Source: Spirochaetia bacterium
GTDB taxonomy: Bacteria > Spirochaetota > Spirochaetia > Treponematales > Breznakiellaceae
DNA: 16,856 nt
Direction of reading: 5' to 3'
NCBI GenBank assembly: GCA_025997715.1
Contig: BNUY01000057.1
Coordinates: 1 to 16,856 of the forward strand
Under the pieces are notes generated by a model. It saw only the letters and a list, made by a program, of their open reading frames with translations, made no database searches and was not told the origin of the DNA. The position numbers and the translations under genes are program-made. This document shows positions 1 to 12,080 of the stretch, in pieces (the first letter of the stretch is position 1; every line of letters starts with the position of its first letter).

Positions 1-846
1 CCTGAAATCAAGCAAAAACTGCTCAAAATCAGCCCCGCGACTATCGACCGGAAACTCAAAAGCGAGCGGGCCAAATTGCAGATACGGGGCATCAGCGGCA
101 CCCGGTGCGGCGAGGCAGCCCTCATTAAGCAGATACCCATTCGGACGCACTACAGCCCCGCTGAGAGCACTACACCGGGCTATTTCCAAACTGATACGGT
201 GCATCATTGCGGTGATACTGACTCGGGCGAGTTCAATCTGACCCTCACCGTTACCGATGTTGCTTCCGGGTGGTCTGAGTTTCGCGCTTTACGCAACAAA
301 GCGCATAAATGGACCCTTGAAGGCCTCCAAAACGTCCATTCCACCCTCCCTTTTGCCATGATTGAGCTCCATAGCGACAATGGCAGTGAGTTCATAAATT
401 ATGACACTTTGAACTGGTGGAAAATCGTCAAAACCCTTGATTTGTCCCGGAGTCGTTCCCGTCACAAAAATGATAATTGCTATGCCGAACAGAAAAATAA
501 CGCCTTCGTCAGAAATTATATCGGCTATTACCGTCTCGATACGGAGAAGGAACTCGCCGCTCTGGGGCGGGTCTATGCGGCGCTCTGCCCACTGCTCAAC
601 TGCTTCATCCCAAACAAGAAACTCATCAGTAAAACTACCGTCGGATCAAAAACGGTCAAGAACTATGACCGCCCTAAAACCCCGTATCAACGCCTCTTGG
701 AATCCACTCATCTCACCGACGAGGTGAAGGCCCGGTTGATCGCTTTTAAGGAACTGTACAATCCGGTCGTTTTACAGCAAGCTGTTCATCGGGCCGTCAA
801 CGCTATGCTGGCAGCCCACCAAGCCAAGCTTCGTACCAAGGCTTAA
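1..846 (+). CDS. DDE (rve-type) integrase/transposase, 5' end outside window
   Basis: The reading frame is open from base 1 to a TAA at 844-846, so this is the C-terminal 281 residues of a longer protein; a TTG at 76 is not a credible start because the frame continues upstream. It carries an RNase-H-fold integrase core with a DDE triad: Asp in FQTDTVHH (residue 65 counted from the window edge), Asp in LHSDNGSEF (126) and Glu in CYAEQKNN (163), the last two separated by 36 residues. The first 25 or so residues look like the tail of a DNA-binding region. The protein would cut and join the ends of its own insertion sequence. Two end-type repeats follow the stop codon directly, which supports a mobile element. 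I cannot assign the IS family with certainty. No frameshift is visible in the part present. Confidence 0.9.
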   Translation, partial: PEIKQKLLKISPATIDRKLKSERAKLQIRGISGTRCGEAALIKQIPIRTHYSPAESTTPGYFQTDTVHHCGDTDSGEFNLTLTVTDVASGWSEFRALRNKAHKWTLEGLQNVHSTLPFAMIELHSDNGSEFINYDTLNWWKIVKTLDLSRSRSRHKNDNCYAEQKNNAFVRNYIGYYRLDTEKELAALGRVYAALCPLLNCFIPNKKLISKTTVGSKTVKNYDRPKTPYQRLLESTHLTDEVKARLIAFKELYNPVVLQQAVHRAVNAMLAAHQAKLRTKA

Positions 847-1086: not shown

Positions 1087-1341
1087 CTACGTATCCGCTT
1101 TCCATTCTGCGATAACCTGCTCATACGCCGCGATGGTTGCCGCCATGGTAATATCCCCAACATCCCCGCGGCCGAGCCAGTCCGCCCCGTCCATTATGTA
1201 GAGCCCCTGAAGTGTCCCTTCCAGGTCTGCCGCCGTACAACCGGGGTCGGCTTCCCGGCGCCGTTTCAGCCCCCGGACTTCCTGGTCAAAGGTTTTTGTA
1301 TAGAGGGTATCCTGCCAGCGTTCACTCATTGCCATCCCCAT
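1087..1341 (-). CDS. Small hypothetical protein (80-84 aa)
   Basis: An acidic soluble protein with no signal peptide or membrane segment. I do not recognise the family. The middle (CTAADLEGTLQGLYIMDGADWLGRGDVGD) reads like a compact helical protein of the kind often found as an uncharacterised domain in treponemes. The frame overlaps the 3' end of the upstream exported-protein gene. Start choice is open: ATG at 1341 gives 84 residues; ATG at 1329, just before the upstream TGA and preceded by GGGGATGGCA, gives 80 residues beginning MSERWQD and looks more natural for translational coupling. A terminator follows near 940. It probably belongs to the same transcript as the upstream gene. Function unknown. 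Confidence 0.65.
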   Translation of the reverse strand: MGMAMSERWQDTLYTKTFDQEVRGLKRRREADPGCTAADLEGTLQGLYIMDGADWLGRGDVGDITMAATIAAYEQVIAEWKADT

Positions 1342-2398
1342 AGATAATATTCCGCCCTATCACCACTTCGCCGCCCGGTATCAGGCGCCCGAACCGGCGG
1401 GCAAGGGGGATTTCACGCCGTTCCGTCCAGTTTAAGCGTTCATCCAGGATATATTCATACCGTATATCCAGTTCTTCACCGGTCTCCCTGACCGCACCGG
1501 TCTCCTTGACCGCAGTCTGCCGGGTCAGGAAGCCGGTTTCATCCCACTGCAGGGTATAGTGGGCGTCGGGCCGCTCCCAGTACCGGGGCCGGGCTGCGGC
1601 GGTATAGAGGACGGACCTGACCGGCAGAGGAGGGGCGCTGATGCCGCTTATACACCCGGCGCTGTTATATTCGTATACCGTGATTGCTGCCCCGTCCGCT
1701 ATAGAAATGAGCCGCTTTGTACCGGCGAACCTCTGGTTCGACGTTTCCCGGTATTCCAGGGAAAAAAACGCCAGGGGCAGGCCATCGGGATTGTACCAGG
1801 TTTCATTTGTCTGCCGGCCAAGATATTCCAGGGCCGCGAAGTACCATCCACCGGAAGCTTCGCCGCCGCCGTGGTTGAGCCGCACCAGGGAAGGATCATC
1901 CCACTTGTATTCGAGAAACTCAAACTCCCAAGGGTCGGAAGCCGCAGGATTGTCCAGTGTGATTTTGCCGATACGCCCCGGTACGGCATCGTCGTAAACC
2001 ACCGCCGCCTGATAGAAGGTCCCGTCCCGGAAGAAAGGGAATTCCAGGAAACGGCCCTGGGCGTCCCGGGTAATACGGTATTCCAGAGTTGCCGCTTCTC
2101 CACCCGTTTCATCTCCGGCGGTCCCGGTCCCGGAAGCTTCGGCGTCGGCGGTGTCTAAAACACCCGCAGGCAGGGTGAGGGTAAGGGAACGGGCCTGTCC
2201 TGCGATAAGGGAAAAGGCGTCCGGGGGCATCGCTGCCGGCCAGTCGGGGCGCCAGGGGATTTCGTCTGAGCGGGCGGCGTCCAGGAGGAGGTTTACGGGG
2301 AAAAGACCGGACCCGTTTTGACCGGCAGCTTCCTCTCCCGGCAGAGCGGAAAGGGCTGCCAAAAAAAGGAGCGCAAAAAGGGGAAACCGGGACTTCAT
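1322..2398 (-). CDS. Exported hypothetical protein with YD-like repeats
   Basis: Predicted 358 residues from ATG 2398. The first 27 residues form a signal peptide (MKSRFPLFALLFLAALSALP, then GEEAAGQ), so the protein is probably periplasmic or outer-membrane associated. A Gly/Thr/Glu-rich low-complexity stretch lies around residues 90-105. The rest contains several Tyr/Trp-rich hairpin-like units (for example YEYNSAGCI, LQWDETGFLTRQ, RYEYILDERLNW) that resemble the YD/RHS style of beta-strand repeats; this is similarity by eye only. The frame extends upstream to 2458, but that extension would bury the signal peptide and overlaps a promoter, so ATG 2398 is preferred. There is no Shine-Dalgarno sequence; the -10 element ends 6 bases before the ATG, suggesting leaderless translation. 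Function unknown. Confidence 0.75.
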   Translation of the reverse strand: MKSRFPLFALLFLAALSALPGEEAAGQNGSGLFPVNLLLDAARSDEIPWRPDWPAAMPPDAFSLIAGQARSLTLTLPAGVLDTADAEASGTGTAGDETGGEAATLEYRITRDAQGRFLEFPFFRDGTFYQAAVVYDDAVPGRIGKITLDNPAASDPWEFEFLEYKWDDPSLVRLNHGGGEASGGWYFAALEYLGRQTNETWYNPDGLPLAFFSLEYRETSNQRFAGTKRLISIADGAAITVYEYNSAGCISGISAPPLPVRSVLYTAAARPRYWERPDAHYTLQWDETGFLTRQTAVKETGAVRETGEELDIRYEYILDERLNWTERREIPLARRFGRLIPGGEVVIGRNIIYGDGNE

Positions 2399-2404
2399 AT
2401 TGAG

Positions 2405-2434
2405 AGTATAATAGAAAGAAAGGGGGGGAGTCAA
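2405..2434 (-). promoter_or_regulatory. Sigma-70 promoter with C-tract spacer, leaderless
   Basis: On the minus strand: -35 TTGACT (2434-2429), an 18-base spacer that starts with seven C residues (2428-2422), then -10 TATACT (2410-2405). The ATG of the exported-protein gene begins at 2398, 6 bases after the -10, where transcription would normally start. An almost identical promoter stands before lipA (6440-6469). Confidence 0.7.
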
Positions 2435-2478: not shown

Positions 2479-2506
2479 TTGACAAACATAAACAATAGTG
2501 TACAAT
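2479..2506 (+). promoter_or_regulatory. Promoter of the toxin-antitoxin operon, leaderless
   Basis: Perfect -35 TTGACA (2479-2484), 16-base spacer, -10 TACAAT (2501-2506). The toxin ATG at 2513 lies 6 bases after the -10 with no Shine-Dalgarno, so the mRNA should begin at or next to the start codon. The octamer TGTACAAT occurs at 2452-2459 and again at 2499-2506, and GTAC-AAT-GTAC (2500-2510) forms a small dyad over the -10. These are candidate sites for autoregulation by the toxin-antitoxin complex. Confidence 0.7.
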
Positions 2507-2512
2507 GTACTT

Positions 2513-2923
2513 ATGGATGTATTATTAGACGCAAGTGCAATAATGGCTATCATTCTCAATGAACCAAATCGGGATATTGTTGTCAATTTAACCAAAGAAG
2601 CAACCCTATTATCACCAGAAATGATCTCATTTGAGATTGGAAATGCTCTGGTAAGTTTATTTAAAAGACATAAGTTAAATGAAACAGAAGTATTAAAAGC
2701 ATATGAAGATTTTACTAAAATCCCAATAAGGACCTTGAAACCTGATATGGGGAAGGCATTAAAAATTTCCTGTAAATATACTATTTATGCCTACGATGCA
2801 TATTATTTAGAAACGGCACATCGGTTAAAATTACCGTTAATAACATTTGATACACATATGGCCGCTGTTGGTCAAAATATGAAAATCACTATTTTGAACG
2901 GAGGAAAAAATGAGGGTATATAA
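2513..2923 (+). CDS. vapC: PIN-domain toxin (VapC-type ribonuclease)
   Basis: 136 residues, normal length for a VapC toxin. PIN-domain acidic residues are all visible: D6 in LLDASAI, E41 in SFEIGNAL, D95 in YAYDAYYLETA and D113 in ITFDTHM. These coordinate Mg2+ in the family, whose members cleave RNA (often tRNA or rRNA) when freed from the antitoxin. A GTG at 2498 would extend the frame, but it lies in the promoter; the protein beginning MDVLLDASAI matches the usual VapC start. The antitoxin gene follows with a 14-base overlap. The toxin is first in the operon, the reverse of the common order. The region is clearly more AT-rich than its neighbours, suggesting horizontal acquisition. The RNA target cannot be read from sequence. 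Confidence 0.9.
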   Translation: MDVLLDASAIMAIILNEPNRDIVVNLTKEATLLSPEMISFEIGNALVSLFKRHKLNETEVLKAYEDFTKIPIRTLKPDMGKALKISCKYTIYAYDAYYLETAHRLKLPLITFDTHMAAVGQNMKITILNGGKNEGI

Positions 2924-3164
2924 TTATTCTGAGGCACGGCAAAACTTTGCAACAGTATTAAATACTGCATTAAAAGAAGAAGTAATAATCACCCGGAAAG
3001 ATGGCAGTAGATTTAAACTACTGTCAATTAACGAAAATAAAAAACAAGGAAAATCTCCGTTGGAAGACATAAAAGGTATAAAGACCGATGTATCAATGCC
3101 CGATATACTTGAAGCAATAAGATATGGAAGGGAAGATCGGGAATATAAAACCGATACCCAATAA
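2910..3164 (+). CDS. Phd/YefM-family antitoxin
   Basis: 84 residues. The N-terminal half (MRVYNYSEARQNFATVLNTA, then EEVIITRKDGSRFKLL) is a typical Phd/YefM DNA-binding and dimerisation domain. The charged C-terminal part (DILEAIRYGRED) would be the flexible segment that blocks the toxin. It has a strong Shine-Dalgarno, GGAGG at 2900-2904, 5 bases before the ATG, unlike the toxin in front of it. The start overlaps the toxin gene by 14 bases, so the two are translationally coupled. The antitoxin should neutralise the PIN toxin and probably represses the operon together with it. Pairing of a PIN toxin with a Phd antitoxin is a known arrangement. Confidence 0.9.
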   Translation: MRVYNYSEARQNFATVLNTALKEEVIITRKDGSRFKLLSINENKKQGKSPLEDIKGIKTDVSMPDILEAIRYGREDREYKTDTQ

Positions 3165-3229: not shown

Positions 3230-4477
3230 TCAGGTATATAAAAACGGCAAAGGCACGGCCCAAATGTCCCGGGCAAGGGAGACAAGCTCGCTGCCGGTAT
3301 AAAGTACAACGCCTTTTTTGAATTTATCCCCCAGGCTATCCTGCAACAGGCGGAGGCTTGAAATATCGCCGCCGGAAATACTGCCTGAAAGTTTTACTTC
3401 AATACCAAGGGTGTCTCCGTTGCGTTTTTCAACGACAAAATCAACTTCCTTATTGTCCTGGGTTCTGAAAACGGAAAGGTCATATTCATGGGCGCCGGTG
3501 ATGTTTTTCATAAGCTCGCAGGCAATAAAATTTTCAAAGAGATGGCCCATGGTGACCGGATCGCTTTTGTATACCTCATCCATATCCCTGCGCAGGAGGT
3601 AGGCGAGCAGATTTGTGTCGGTAAAATAAAGCTTTGGCGATTTCGTGAACCGTTTATTGAGCCGGACAGGCTTTGACCAGGGCTGGATTTCAAAGATGAT
3701 GTATGTATTGGAGCAAGCCGCCTTATAACGGTCGTAGGTTTTCGTGTCCAGTCCGGCTTCCGCCGATACGCTGCTGTTATTGAGAAGGCTCCCCGCCCGC
3801 AACGCGAGAAGTGAGAGGAGGGTGATGATTTTTTCCGGGCGCTTTATATCGGCGATAGCGCGTATGTCGCGTTGGATCAGGGTAGTGAGGTAGTCATCAA
3901 ACCACTGCGTACGGTGTATATCCTTATGGATCGCCGGTTCCGGGAAGGTTGCGTTTTTGATTACCGGTACAAGATCGCCCCGCGCAAATTTTTTGTATTC
4001 CAATTTTTCATGGAACAGCCGGTCGATGAAATTTACGTTTCTTTCCATAGATTCAGCGGCGGAAAAGGGCAGCAGGGTAAGCGCCGACATCCTCCCCACC
4101 AGGGCTTCCGCCAGTACGGGCAAAGCCATAAGGTTGGCCGAACCGGTAAGCAAATACCGGCATTTTCCCTCGCCCTTCGCCCGGTTTTCATCTACCGCCA
4201 TTTTGAGATACGGGAATATGCCGGGGGCCATTTGTACCTCATCAATGATATTCATAGCGTCGGCGGGAAGATTTTTGATGAAATTTTCAGGGTCCGTATG
4301 TGCCGCCTCAAGGGTAACCGGGGAATCGAAGGTGATATAATTTGTCGTCCCGGCGAATTTCAAATTTTGCGCCAGGGTTGATTTACCGGTTTGCCGCGGG
4401 CCATTGAGATAGATGAGGGGGCGGGTTTTCGCCGTTTCCTCAATGAGGGTGTTTAAAAGCCGGTGATAATACTGCAT
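3230..4477 (-). CDS. AAA+ ATPase with DUF4143 C-terminal domain
   Basis: 415 residues, usual size for this family. Walker A is GPRQTGKST (26-34), Walker B NIIDEVQ (76-82), and a sensor-like TGSAN follows at 111-115. The C-terminal half (about 190-400) is the DUF4143 region, with a winged-helix-like middle and a restriction-endonuclease-like fold signature: FENFIACEL (E315), EVDFVVE (D346) and IEVK (E360, K362), the spacing expected of a PD-(D/E)xK core. The family is widespread in bacteria and archaea; its biological role is not established, and links to mobile or defence functions are only suggestions. Start at ATG 4477 with AGGA at 4487-4484. It stands alone between the toxin-antitoxin pair and the lipoate operon and ends in a terminator. 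Confidence 0.9.
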   Translation of the reverse strand: MQYYHRLLNTLIEETAKTRPLIYLNGPRQTGKSTLAQNLKFAGTTNYITFDSPVTLEAAHTDPENFIKNLPADAMNIIDEVQMAPGIFPYLKMAVDENRAKGEGKCRYLLTGSANLMALPVLAEALVGRMSALTLLPFSAAESMERNVNFIDRLFHEKLEYKKFARGDLVPVIKNATFPEPAIHKDIHRTQWFDDYLTTLIQRDIRAIADIKRPEKIITLLSLLALRAGSLLNNSSVSAEAGLDTKTYDRYKAACSNTYIIFEIQPWSKPVRLNKRFTKSPKLYFTDTNLLAYLLRRDMDEVYKSDPVTMGHLFENFIACELMKNITGAHEYDLSVFRTQDNKEVDFVVEKRNGDTLGIEVKLSGSISGGDISSLRLLQDSLGDKFKKGVVLYTGSELVSLARDIWAVPLPFLYT

Positions 4478-4490
4478 TAAGCGTCCTTGT

Positions 4491-4538
4491 AAAAATGGTA
4501 TCGCAATCCATATATTTACTGGATTATGATACCATTTT
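4491..4538 (-). terminator. Long imperfect hairpin; terminator of the lipoate operon
   Basis: A dyad centred on 4515: AAAATGGTATC (4492-4502) pairs with GATACCATTTT (4528-4538), and AATCCA (4505-4510) pairs with TGGATT (4520-4525), with two mismatched positions between the arms and a 9-base loop. On the minus strand it starts inside the lplA stop codon and ends in TTTTT, so it can act as a terminator for lipA-lplB-lplA. It is unusually long and lies only 14 bases upstream of the ATPase start codon, so it could also be an operator or control element for that gene. Confidence 0.6.
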
Positions 4539-5298
4539 ACCGTTTATACAGCCAGTCCCGGGCGCCAAACTTTTCCACCGCCAGTTCCCGCCCGCGCTGC
4601 TCTTCCGCTGCGGTGGGATCGGCGGGGCTCAGGTCCAGGGTAAGGGTCCGGCGGAAGCCCTCTGCCAGTGCCTTTGACGCTTCCTCCATGGAAATGTCTT
4701 TCCCCAGCGCTCTGAGGCTGGTGACCCGGTTCTTTACATCTTTGATGATCTGGTCCTTCATTTTTTCCGGGGGTACCCGGAGGAGTTCAAACATCAGGTC
4801 CACATCGTTGTTCAAGAGTATGGTGCCGTGCTGCAATATGCAGCCCATGCGGCGGGTCTGGGCGTTCCCGGAGATTTTCCGGTCCCCCGCCAGGATATCG
4901 TTGATGGGGACGAATTCGGCTTCCACCCCTAAAAGCTTGAGCCCTTCTATAATACCGGCGCAGAACCGCGCATAGGACCGGTTGATATCCTGCTCCGCCA
5001 GGGCATGGGTGTTTGTCATGATGATGCTGTAGGTAAGTTCGGCCTGGTGAAATACCGCGCCCCCTCCGGAAATCCGGCGGACCACGTCTACCCCGTGTTT
5101 TTTGCAGGCCGTCACGTCCACCTCTTCCTCAATACCCTGGAAGCAGCCCAGGGATACCGCCGCAGGCCTCCAGCCGTAAAGCCTGATACAGGGCATGGCC
5201 CCCGCCGCCACGGATTCCAGGAGAGCCTCGTCCAGGCCCATATTGTAGCAGCCGTTGTGGTATCCGGTTTCTAAAAGCCGGAACGGGTGTGTGTTCAT
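4537..5298 (-). CDS. lplA: Lipoate-protein ligase A, catalytic chain
   Basis: 253 residues of the BPL/LplA/LipB fold. It activates lipoate with ATP and transfers it to the lysine of lipoyl domains (for example 2-oxoacid dehydrogenase E2 or glycine-cleavage H protein) in the cytoplasm. Visible motifs are RRISGGGAVFH (74-84), the lipoyl-AMP binding loop, and DRKISGNAQ (139-147) with the catalytic Lys141, followed by ILQHGTILLN. The E. coli enzyme is about 337 residues; this chain ends after the catalytic domain, and the missing accessory domain is encoded by the upstream gene. At the site where LipM-type octanoyltransferases have their cysteine, this protein reads VPINDILA, favouring a ligase. 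The start overlaps the upstream TGA (ATGA), with AAGGAG before it. Last gene of lipA-lplB-lplA; its stop codon enters the terminator hairpin. Confidence 0.9.
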   Translation of the reverse strand: MNTHPFRLLETGYHNGCYNMGLDEALLESVAAGAMPCIRLYGWRPAAVSLGCFQGIEEEVDVTACKKHGVDVVRRISGGGAVFHQAELTYSIIMTNTHALAEQDINRSYARFCAGIIEGLKLLGVEAEFVPINDILAGDRKISGNAQTRRMGCILQHGTILLNNDVDLMFELLRVPPEKMKDQIIKDVKNRVTSLRALGKDISMEEASKALAEGFRRTLTLDLSPADPTAAEEQRGRELAVEKFGARDWLYKR

Positions 5299-5579
5299 AG
5301 GATGCTCCTTTTAAGGGCCGCATTGAAGACCTCCGCTAATCCGTCGCCGGAGATCCCCTGGGCTTCTACCCCCTCTTCTGCCAGGTACTGGTCAAACCGG
5401 GGACCCAGCTCCGCCGCTTTGGTCCCCGAAAGCCGCTGTTCCGCCTTTTCAAACCCTTCCTCGGGGCTGGCAAAAAAATCCCCCCGGATGGAGATGGAAC
5501 GGATAATCCCCTCATCAAGTTCCGCAGTAATCCGTATGAGCTTACACCCCGCCGGTTTGCCCAGGGCTTCAATTTTCAT
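5295..5579 (-). CDS. lplB: Lipoate-protein ligase accessory chain (LplB-like)
   Basis: 94 residues from ATG 5579, which overlaps the lipA stop as ATGA; an upstream in-frame start at 5597 would only add six residues inside lipA. The sequence fits the small C-terminal domain normally fused to LplA: GKPAGCKLIRITAELDEG, then IRSISIRGDFFASPEEGFE, and a helical tail. In Thermoplasma this domain is a separate protein, LplB, needed by LplA to form lipoyl-AMP. Its position between lipA and a short lplA lacking this domain makes the same arrangement very likely here. It ends in an ATGA overlap with lplA, so the two chains are probably made in equal amounts. Cytoplasmic, no signal peptide. Confidence 0.85.
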   Translation of the reverse strand: MKIEALGKPAGCKLIRITAELDEGIIRSISIRGDFFASPEEGFEKAEQRLSGTKAAELGPRFDQYLAEEGVEAQGISGDGLAEVFNAALKRSIL

Positions 5580-6433
5580 GGCAGGGTTCCATCCCACGCT
5601 TCCAGGGCGTGGTAGCTGGTCCGGGCAAGGGGGGCGGACACCACGGAGGAAAAGCCCCGTTCCCGCCCTGCGCGCCCATAGTCCCCAAATTGTTCCGGGG
5701 TGATGTACTCTGCCACGGGGATCTGCTTCAAGGAGGGTTGGAGGTATTGGCCCAGGACCAGAATATCCACATCAGCGTTACGAAGTTCATCCATGGCCGC
5801 CAGGACCTCGTCTTTTGTTTCACCCAGCCCCAGGAGCAGGCTGGACTTTGTCCGGGGAACACCCAGGGCCTTTGCCGCCCGCAGGGTTGCCAGGCTTTTG
5901 TCAAAGGAAGCCCGGCTGTCCCGAACCCCCTGCAAAGAACGTACGGTTTCTACATTATGGGCCGCCACCTGAAGACCCGCCTCCGCAATAGGGGCAAACT
6001 CCCCTTCGGTATAATCCGGGGTGAGGGTCTCGACCTTTATTGCCGGAAGCCGTTCCTTGATGGCCCTGATACAGGCGGCAAAATGCCCGGCCCCCCGATC
6101 CGGGAGATCATCCCGGTCCACCGAGGTGAGTACCAGATAGCGCAGCTTCAGTTCCTCCGCCGCCCGGGCAATCCCGTCGCCCTCGTCGTGCCGCAGGGGG
6201 CGGCCCTCCCGGCCGGTACTTACCGCGCAGAACCGGCAGCCCCGGGTGCAGACATCCCCCATAAGCATGAAGGTGGCGGTTCCCAGGCCCCAACATTCCC
6301 CCTTATTGGGACAATGGGCCTCGTCGCAGACCGTATGGAGCCGGTATTTTTCCAGGATGCCGCCGACCGTGTTCCAGGTGTCCCCCGAAGGAAGACGCAC
6401 CCTGAGCCATTCGGGTTTGGTTAGGGACCTCAT
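5576..6433 (-). CDS. lipA: Lipoyl synthase (radical SAM)
   Basis: 285 residues. It inserts two sulfur atoms into octanoyl groups already bound to carrier proteins, making lipoyl groups, using SAM and two [4Fe-4S] clusters. The auxiliary-cluster cysteines are C36, C41 and C47 (CDEAHCPNKGEC). The radical-SAM cysteines are C62, C66 and C69 (CTRGCRFC). The conserved C-terminal RSSY motif appears as RTSY (271-274), with the second serine kept. The frame extends to a TTG at 6469, but that TTG is the -35 box of the promoter and has no Shine-Dalgarno; ATG 6433 is the likely start. The -10 box ends 7 bases upstream, so the message is probably leaderless. First gene of an operon with lplB and lplA, joined by ATGA overlaps. 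Confidence 0.95.
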   Translation of the reverse strand: MRSLTKPEWLRVRLPSGDTWNTVGGILEKYRLHTVCDEAHCPNKGECWGLGTATFMLMGDVCTRGCRFCAVSTGREGRPLRHDEGDGIARAAEELKLRYLVLTSVDRDDLPDRGAGHFAACIRAIKERLPAIKVETLTPDYTEGEFAPIAEAGLQVAAHNVETVRSLQGVRDSRASFDKSLATLRAAKALGVPRTKSSLLLGLGETKDEVLAAMDELRNADVDILVLGQYLQPSLKQIPVAEYITPEQFGDYGRAGRERGFSSVVSAPLARTSYHALEAWDGTLP

Positions 6434-6439
6434 GGGGAA

Positions 6440-6469
6440 AGTATAATAGAAAAAAGGGGGGGGAGTCAA
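6440..6469 (-). promoter_or_regulatory. lipA promoter with C-tract spacer, leaderless
   Basis: On the minus strand: -35 TTGACT (6469-6464), 18-base spacer starting with eight C residues (6463-6456), -10 TATACT (6445-6440), and lipA ATG at 6433 directly after TTTCCCC... (no room for a leader). The element is a near copy of the promoter at 2405-2434, including the 36-base distance from -35 to ATG. Confidence 0.7.
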
Positions 6470-6508
6470 AGCGGTGTCATAAAAATTATTTTTTATGCGT
6501 AAAAAGTA

Positions 6509-10390: not shown

Positions 10391-10424
10391 CGGCGGGGAG
10401 ATTTTAAGTCTCCCCGCCGTTTTT
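10391..10424. terminator. Bidirectional rho-independent terminator
   Basis: An 11-bp perfect stem CGGCGGGGAGA / TCTCCCCGCCG (10391-10401 and 10409-10419) with a 7-base loop, followed on the plus strand by TTTTT (10420-10424) and on the minus strand by CTCAATTTTT. It lies between two convergent genes (barrel protein ending at 10360, pfp ending at 10428) and can terminate both. Confidence 0.9.
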
Positions 10425-10427
10425 GGT

Positions 10428-12080
10428 TTACCGTACCGCCTTCTCCAGCTTCAGCGTAATAGTCGGCTGATCGCAAACCTCCGCTGGGCCGTAGTACTGA
10501 ATGGCGCCGGGGTAGACAAAGCTGGTCTTGACCGCCCAGGTTTCCCGTTCCGCCGCAAAGGTCTTGAAGGGTTTGCCCTCCAGTTCCACCAGGGCTTTTT
10601 TGATAACCGGTTTATCGGCGCCGTGACGGTGCTCCATGTTCATCATCATGGTCAGGGGGACCCCGCCGGCTACCCATTGGTCTGCGGGGGCGGTCAGGTT
10701 TTTTACGCTGGACAGGTACCCCGTAAGGCCCGAGGCGATAAGCACAAAGGCGCTGAACCCCAGGCTGTAACAGTAGTCGGCGTCGAAGTTGGAGGGGAAG
10801 GCGCAGCGGCCCTCGTAACCGAAGAAGTGGCCCAGGGCGCTGAAACTGCCCTTGTAGGTTCCCACTTTTTTGAGGTCCTTTAGCTTTGCTGCGGTCATGC
10901 CCATGAGCAGTTTTTCTGTTTCGATACGGGATACCTGGACATTGCCGTGGGGGTCGCGGTCCATGAGGAGTTCCTTGGCGATTTCCGCGGGGAGGCTGGT
11001 GAACAGGTAGCCCGAGGGGTCTGAAAGCTGGGTGACCAGCCAGTCGGTCTGGGCGTGAAAGTTTTCCAGTTCGGCAAATTCCTTTTCCTTATCCGCCATC
11101 ACCTCGTTCAGTTCCTCAATGAGCTTTTTCATCTCCGGGATAAACTCCACCAGGCCTTCGGGGATAAGCGCCACCCCGAAGTTTTCCTTGTTGTCCGCCC
11201 GCTTCACCACGGCGTCAACGATCTGGTCCACCACCTGGCCCAGGGAAAGTTTTTTTGCCTCCACCTCTTCGGAGATGAAACAGATGTTAGGCTGGGTTTG
11301 GAGGGCGCACTCCAGGGCGATATGGCTGGCGGAACGTCCCATGAGTTTGATAAAGTGCCAGTATTTCTTTGCGCTGTTGGCGTCCCGTTCTATGTTTCCG
11401 ATAAGTTCGCTGTAGGTCTTTACCGCCGTGTCGAAACCGAAGGAGATTTCGATATGCTCATTTTTCAGATCCCCGTCTATGGTCTTGGGGCAGCCGATAA
11501 CCTGTATCTTTGAACCCCTGGACAGGAAGTATTCCGCCAGAAGCGCAGCGTTTGTGTTGCTATCATCCCCGCCGATGATCACCACCGCGTCAAGGCCCAG
11601 CTTTGTTGCGTTTTCCAGGGAGGCGGCAAACTGTTCCGGGGTTTCAATCTTGGTCCGCCCGGAACCGATCATGTCAAAGCCCCCGGTATTGCGGTAGGCG
11701 TCCATCATGGCGGCGGTAATTTCCACACTTTTGTTGTCGATGAGGCCGCTGGGGCCCCCCTTTAAACCGATAAGTTTTGAATCAGGGTTGCCCTTCTTAA
11801 GGCCGTCGTAAAGGCCGGCTATCACATTGTGGCCCCCCGGAGCCTGACCGCCGGAGAGGATCACGGCCACGGTAAGTTTGCGGCCCATGGTTTCGGTCTT
11901 GCCCGGCACAAAGGTTGCTATGGGCTGCCCGTAGGTTTCCTTAAAAAGGGTCTTTAACGCCGCCTGATCCGCAATGGATTCGGTGGGGCCGCCCAATTTG
12001 ACTGCTATGTCGCTTTTTAAAATGCCGGGAAGTTTTGGTTTGTAGGTATAACGAACTTTTTGTAACGCCGATAATTCCAT
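10428..12080 (-). CDS. pfp: Pyrophosphate-dependent 6-phosphofructokinase
   Basis: 550 residues, the long form found in spirochaetes and plants. It converts fructose 6-phosphate and PPi to fructose 1,6-bisphosphate and Pi, reversibly, in glycolysis and gluconeogenesis. Motifs: [10 protein letters not shown] (76-85), GGDDSNTNA (170-178), PKTIDGDL (198-205) and [11 protein letters not shown] (247-257). The second Asp of GGDD and the Lys of PKTIDGDL are the residues that mark PPi rather than ATP use in the family. Start ATG 12080 has AAGGAG at the right distance. It has its own promoter (12121-12150) whose -35 overlaps the end of the Uma2 gene, so it is separately expressed although it follows the sigma-factor operon on the same strand. 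Ends in a shared terminator. Confidence 0.97.

Follow-up and report, generated by a model that had tools for sequence, protein, structure and literature searches.

A leaderless promoter of the housekeeping type, including its start codon, has probably been copied between the two ends of a former operon in a spirochaete genome (probability about 0.6), and its two copies now precede lipA and a second gene, called g2398 after the position at which it starts. Both copies lie in the window, i.e. the whole stretch of 16,856 nucleotides that was analyzed. As genome history the pair is neat but for the most part ordinary; it offers a clear candidate for the copying of a promoter together with its start codon, in a single short block, from one former operon neighbour to another.

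Upstream of lipA, the unit consists of TTGACT, C8, a T-rich stretch, TATACT, six bases and the ATG (6469-6431, minus strand), and a near-copy is found on the same strand upstream of g2398 (Table 1). Exact sequences are TTGACTCCCCCCCCTTTTTTCTATTATACT at lipA (6469-6440) and TTGACTCCCCCCCTTTCTTTCTATTATACT at g2398 (2434-2405). At both genes the -35 and -10 boxes are separated by 18 bases and 36 bases lie between the first base of the -35 box and the ATG, exactly as a previous sequence-only reading of this DNA had described; TATACT is followed by a gap of six bases. The strict pattern was matched twice in the window and never in 200 dinucleotide shuffles. Comparison of the window with itself aligned the two units without gaps (E 6e-9), the identity extending from CTTTGACT across the ATG and as far as the third of the codons that follow, with a 3′ end reading ATGARGTCCC. 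Both spacers are composed of C and T only, and the -35 boxes are near-consensus and good.

Table 1. Promoter units and genes of the locus, in window coordinates.
Feature	Coordinates	Strand	Basis
48-base unit at lipA: CTTTGACT, C8, T-rich, TATACT, 6 bases, ATG, AGGTCCC	6424..6471	-	41/48 identical, ungapped, to 2389-2436
-35 box TTGACT, lipA promoter	6464..6469	-	pattern match
C8 run in lipA spacer	6456..6463	-	homopolymer list
-10 box TATACT, lipA promoter, spacer 18	6440..6445	-	pattern match
48-base near-copy before and into g2398, C7	2389..2436	-	41/48 match; similar g2398 promoter in G002, G003, G004
C7 run of g2398 unit	2422..2428	-	
lipA, lipoyl synthase, 285 aa from ATG at 6433	5576..6433	-	PRK05481 334.6 bits, cut-off 203
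lplB-like small subunit of lipoate-protein ligase	5295..5597	-	LplB 45.4 bits, under cut-off 65
lplA-like lipoate-protein ligase (large subunit)	4537..5298	-	Pfam LplA-B_cat 177.6 bits, cut-off 27
AAA_14/DUF4143 ATPase, between lplA and g2398	3230..4477	-	Pfam
PIN/Phd toxin-antitoxin-like pair, between lplA and g2398	2510..3164	+	Pfam PIN and PhdYeFM_antitox
g2398, 358 aa from ATG at 2398, hydrophobic N-terminus	1322..2398	-	homologue matches in 18/38 genomes, own included
orf84, small ORF downstream of g2398	1087..1341	-	beside g2398 in all 8 relatives examined (G002, G003, G004, G005, G006, G009, G013, G022)

The sequence-only reading had noted that at lipA the C run is one base longer and the T-rich part one base shorter, and had seen in this a pressure to keep the spacing. 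While these lengths are correct, the C7 plus T of g2398 and the C8 of lipA differ by one T/C substitution at the border of the run, not by compensated indels. Since a T/C change at the run edge accounts for the additional C, the constant spacing of 18 needs no compensating indel, and a pressure on spacing finds no footing in two units that differ by substitutions alone (five of the seven differences being transitions).

The leaderless layout behind the two units is a common class in this genome and in its relatives. The genome assembly containing the window (G000; 3,377,303 bases, 447 contigs, 76.92% complete) carries 32 sites of the form TTGAC-N18-20-TATANT-N4-8-ATG compared to one in the control, and 57 genomes, including this one, carry 851 compared to 55. 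When any gap of 0-30 bases between the -10 box and the ATG was allowed, 89 matches (eight in the control) were obtained in the same genome, with gaps of six and seven bases accounting for 11 matches each and every other gap for at most five. A gap of six to seven bases after the -10 box is the position at which a sigma-70 transcription start would fall on the ATG. At 18 of the 30 sites fetched from these 32, the ATG opens at least 50 codons; the 12 others open fewer than 50, one of them running off its contig, and may represent leadered genes or chance matches. The start codons of both units open long genes with homologues in relatives (285 codons for lipA and 358 for g2398), for which a mechanical ORF list had wrongly chosen starts lying 12 and 20 codons, respectively, ahead of these ATGs and within their own promoters. 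These counts lend comparative support to leaderless starts being frequent in this spirochaete order. Among relatives, G011 contains 63 sites of this layout; its promoter L239 comprises TTGACC, the all-C/T spacer CCCTCCCCTCCCCCCCC, TATACT, six bases and the ATG of a helicase-like ORF (464 codons in the stretch). In addition, a promoter-like site on contig C107 (L037, 1189-1229, minus strand) has G8 between its -35 and -10 boxes, and its ATG opens 23 codons.

Since pyrimidine-rich spacers recur in the leaderless promoters of the family, convergence is the main rival to copying: two independent promoters of this style could have become alike through consensus boxes, a pyrimidine-rich spacer and a fixed six-base gap, a possibility to which we give odds well below even. 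The excess of Y10-N4-TATANT-N6-ATG speaks for it, with 12 matches compared to one control in five genomes of the genus (purine form, two compared to zero) and 180 matches in 86 genomes compared to 19 controls among 145 genomes of the family, counts that are too low given that a purine in the spacer stretch hides the G002, G003 and G004 g2398 promoters from the pattern. Ten of the 12 genus sites open at least 138 codons, the remaining two opening nine and 11, and 35 of 40 fetched family sites (17 of the 20 listed first, where one row fetched earlier was passed over, and 18 of 20 picked for C-richness) open at least 60 codons, compared to 346 of 904 ATGs (38%) in the same loci. Pyrimidine-rich leaderless promoters recur before mixed genes in several genomes of the family, such as those at L258, L259 and L281 and those at L244, L273 and L277, where the protein text resembles that of argB and polA orthologues, respectively. 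Only four of the 40 family sites have, as best hexamer at 15-19 spacing, one that fits TTGACA in five or six places; it is our speculation that a pyrimidine spacer helps where the -35 box is poor, and the spacer is a testable promoter feature. Convergence is also favoured by similar units at other genes, on C3 of G004 (90% over 29 bases) and on C139 of G125. In addition, part of the likeness of the pair may be convergent: once both hexamers, the seven shared Cs and the ATG are set aside, 19 of 26 columns are identical, and for match chances of 0.26, 0.35 and 0.5 the binomial tail amounts to 7e-7, 8.6e-5 and only 0.014, respectively.

Against convergence, the identity of the two units does not end at the ATG but continues into the coding sequence, and the copies lie 4 kb apart at genes that were formerly neighbours. 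Moreover, the lipA/g2398 pair scored 61 among the 435 pairs of 30 leaderless sites, and the runner-up, dispersed repeats set aside, reached 31, which favours copying over convergence. The one higher-scoring pair (86) is formed by L024 (1499-1565) and L032 (640-706); these are copies of a dispersed repeat of 67 bases with 85% identity, within which lie a promoter of the leaderless layout and a short ORF.

At the g2398 end, the promoter can be followed into relatives. The g2398 orthologues of G002, G003 and G004 keep TATACT-N6-ATG together with a largely pyrimidine spacer, and the promoter in G002 also carries TTGACTCCCGCCCC. In G002 other bases interrupt the C run; G003 and G004 have no C7 run and weaker boxes in the -35 place (TTCACT and TTGTCT, respectively), which speaks against copying. 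Used as a query, the lipA unit retrieved the g2398 unit of its own genome with E 2.6e-9 and the g2398 promoter of G002 with E 4.3e-9, and the TTCCC after the lipA -10 box matches g2398 of G002 rather than that of its own genome. Taken together, these matches suggest that the lipA and g2398 units were one sequence that would have diverged before G000 and G002 did. A direction from g2398 to lipA is slightly favoured, as ATGAAGYCCCGG recurs in g2398 orthologues (G000, G002 and G004), and not at the other located lipA starts.

A lipA match was obtained in 22 of 38 genomes, the own genome included, and none in the four other genomes of the same genus (G003, a single contig of 4,059,867 bases, and three drafts); the history of the lipA promoter is therefore not traceable there, a further point against copying. 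At eight of the 22 lipA loci, again including the own one, TATANT lies six to seven bases before an in-frame ATG; these loci belong to two families and have no common spacer, and they suggest that a putatively leaderless lipA recurs across the order. No such -10 box was found at the other 14 loci, one of which is short of upstream DNA. Among the lipA loci compared, only the own genome has a C run.

The sequence-only reading had taken lipA and g2398 for unrelated genes, a view that does not agree with gene order. Three relatives, G006, G009 and G022, have the genes arranged as lipA-lplB-lplA-g2398-orf84 (lipA and lplB being about 1.3 kb apart in G006), and the window shows the same order with the PIN/Phd pair and the AAA/DUF4143 gene lying between lplA and g2398. 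In the drafts G013 and G005, lipA-lplB-lplA and g2398-orf84 are on separate contigs, and in the draft G015 lipA-lplB-lplA occurs without g2398 on its contig piece; g2398-orf84 is present in G002, G003 and G004, where lipA was not found. As for gene identity, lipA scored 306.3 bits with TIGR00510, just below the cut-off of 310.25, and the lplA-like ORF scored 176.8 bits with LplA_large, below the cut-off of 480. No family was found for g2398 or orf84, the former being without a Pfam or NCBIfam hit at 0.001.

The sequence-only reading had suggested a common regulon, and had proposed a genome-wide search for a shared leaderless class. The wider class indeed emerged from such a search (32 compared to one, see above), but the C-run class did not: its strict form has two copies in the own genome assembly, which covers 77% of the genome, and a count of two was the outcome that this reading itself had set as telling against the class. 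TTGAC-N-C6 with TATANT occurs at six sites in the 145 family genomes, two being lipA and g2398, compared to five in the reversed control as counted by eye, and a relaxed C-run pattern gave nine matches, six of them the lipA/g2398 pair in three registers each, compared to eight in the control. A C-run regulon is thus not supported, given the copy number in the own genome assembly and the lack of excess over the reversed control. As to a mobile or duplicated promoter cassette, also proposed in that reading, duplication is the likeliest explanation, whereas mobility is not supported, there being only two copies, 4 kb apart, in a genome 77% complete; a 68-base search of five same-genus genomes gave strong copies solely at the g2398 genes of G002 and the own genome, with a weaker 29-base match in G004. 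The string TTGACTCCCCCC was likewise rejected as a lineage-specific promoter mark, since it occurs in many phyla and means little alone: an exact scan of genome contigs for TTGACTCCCCCC-N6-14-TATANT found at least 114 stretches, and among the 115 matches listed 13 have an ATG four to eight bases on, five of which open at least 60 codons.

Two further readings assign a function to the shared sequence itself. If the unit bound a putative regulator co-controlling both halves of the former operon, its near-identity at the two genes would maintain their co-expression, but the own genome assembly holds no more copies of the strict form, the window self-comparison reported no inverted repeat within the 48 bases, and the C run is not conserved in relatives; we regard this as the least probable of the readings considered. 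Scarcely more probable is phase variation, in which slippage in the C run would alter the -35/-10 spacing and switch lipA and g2398. The position of the seven- to eight-base C tract between the two boxes is in keeping with it and has a precedent in Treponema pallidum, where tp0126 and tprL are described as having phase-variable poly-G promoters, the tp0126 tract lying between -35 and -10 with a best spacing of 17 (PMC7864442). Compared with these promoters, the lipA/g2398 tract is poly-C, is located at a housekeeping-type gene and, as a comparison of g2398 indicated, lacks the conservation in close relatives that is a trait of phase-variable homopolymer promoters; G002 has a broken run, and no C7 run is present in G003 and G004. 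The spacing of 18 kept in both copies and the absence of an excess of the C6+ form over the control in the family also argue against phase variation.

The unit most likely belongs to a known class, the leaderless sigma-70-type promoter with a predicted transcription start at the ATG. Leptospira belongs to a different order of spirochaetes. In Leptospira interrogans, dRNA-seq placed many transcription starts at the start codon or within 10 bases of it; these were measured, whereas those of lipA and g2398 are predicted only (PMC5243855). A survey of bacterial leaderless genes reports a -10 box some 12 bases ahead of the start codon and lists such genes for six of 18 spirochaete genomes; the present units resemble them in a TANNNT-like box followed, after six bases, by the ATG, and add a near-consensus -35 box, a C/T-only spacer and a near-copy at two genes (PMC3160421). 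In Deinococcus-Thermus, a different phylum, leaderless expression is likewise driven by a -10 box adjoining the ORF, and a reporter is expressed from 50-base fragments taken from other species (PMC12340547). Among the open-access titles and abstract beginnings listed in literature searches, no publication on the lipA/g2398 unit was found.

We propose that the unit acts as an ordinary leaderless promoter of the sigma-70-like housekeeping type. RNA polymerase carrying the housekeeping sigma factor would use TTGACT and TATACT and start about six to seven bases past the -10 box, at the A of the start codon; ribosomes would initiate on the bare 5′ AUG with no need for a ribosome-binding site. As the unit carries its own start codon, even a short copy would be complete for transcription and translation. 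In the ancestor, lipA-lplB-lplA-g2398-orf84 most likely formed one operon; a copy of about 48 bases, comprising the promoter, the ATG and two to three codons, would then have passed between its lipA and g2398 ends, probably earlier than the split of G000 from G002. In the own genome, the PIN/Phd and AAA/DUF4143 block would have come between lplA and g2398. More generally, and only tentatively, leaderless promoters may be minimal transplantable cassettes, such that a micro-duplication of about 48 bases could restart a gene cut from its operon, with the pyrimidine-rich spacer that many of them have in this family possibly replacing a weak -35 box.

Further elements were observed around the locus. 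The PIN gene has a leaderless-looking promoter of its own, TTGACA-N16-TACAAT-N6-ATG (2479-2515, plus strand), divergent from the g2398 promoter, and its TGTACAAT is repeated just upstream. An imperfect inverted repeat of 47 bases (83%; 4492-4538) separates lplA from the AAA/DUF4143 gene; it may represent an operator or the mark of an inserted block. At the left edge of the window lies a transposase/integrase-core-like ORF (76-846, plus strand; rve 24.9 bits, under the cut-off of 32.6), and a terminator-like 29-base inverted repeat (10391-10419) is located just 3′ of the ORF at 10428-12080 on the minus strand.
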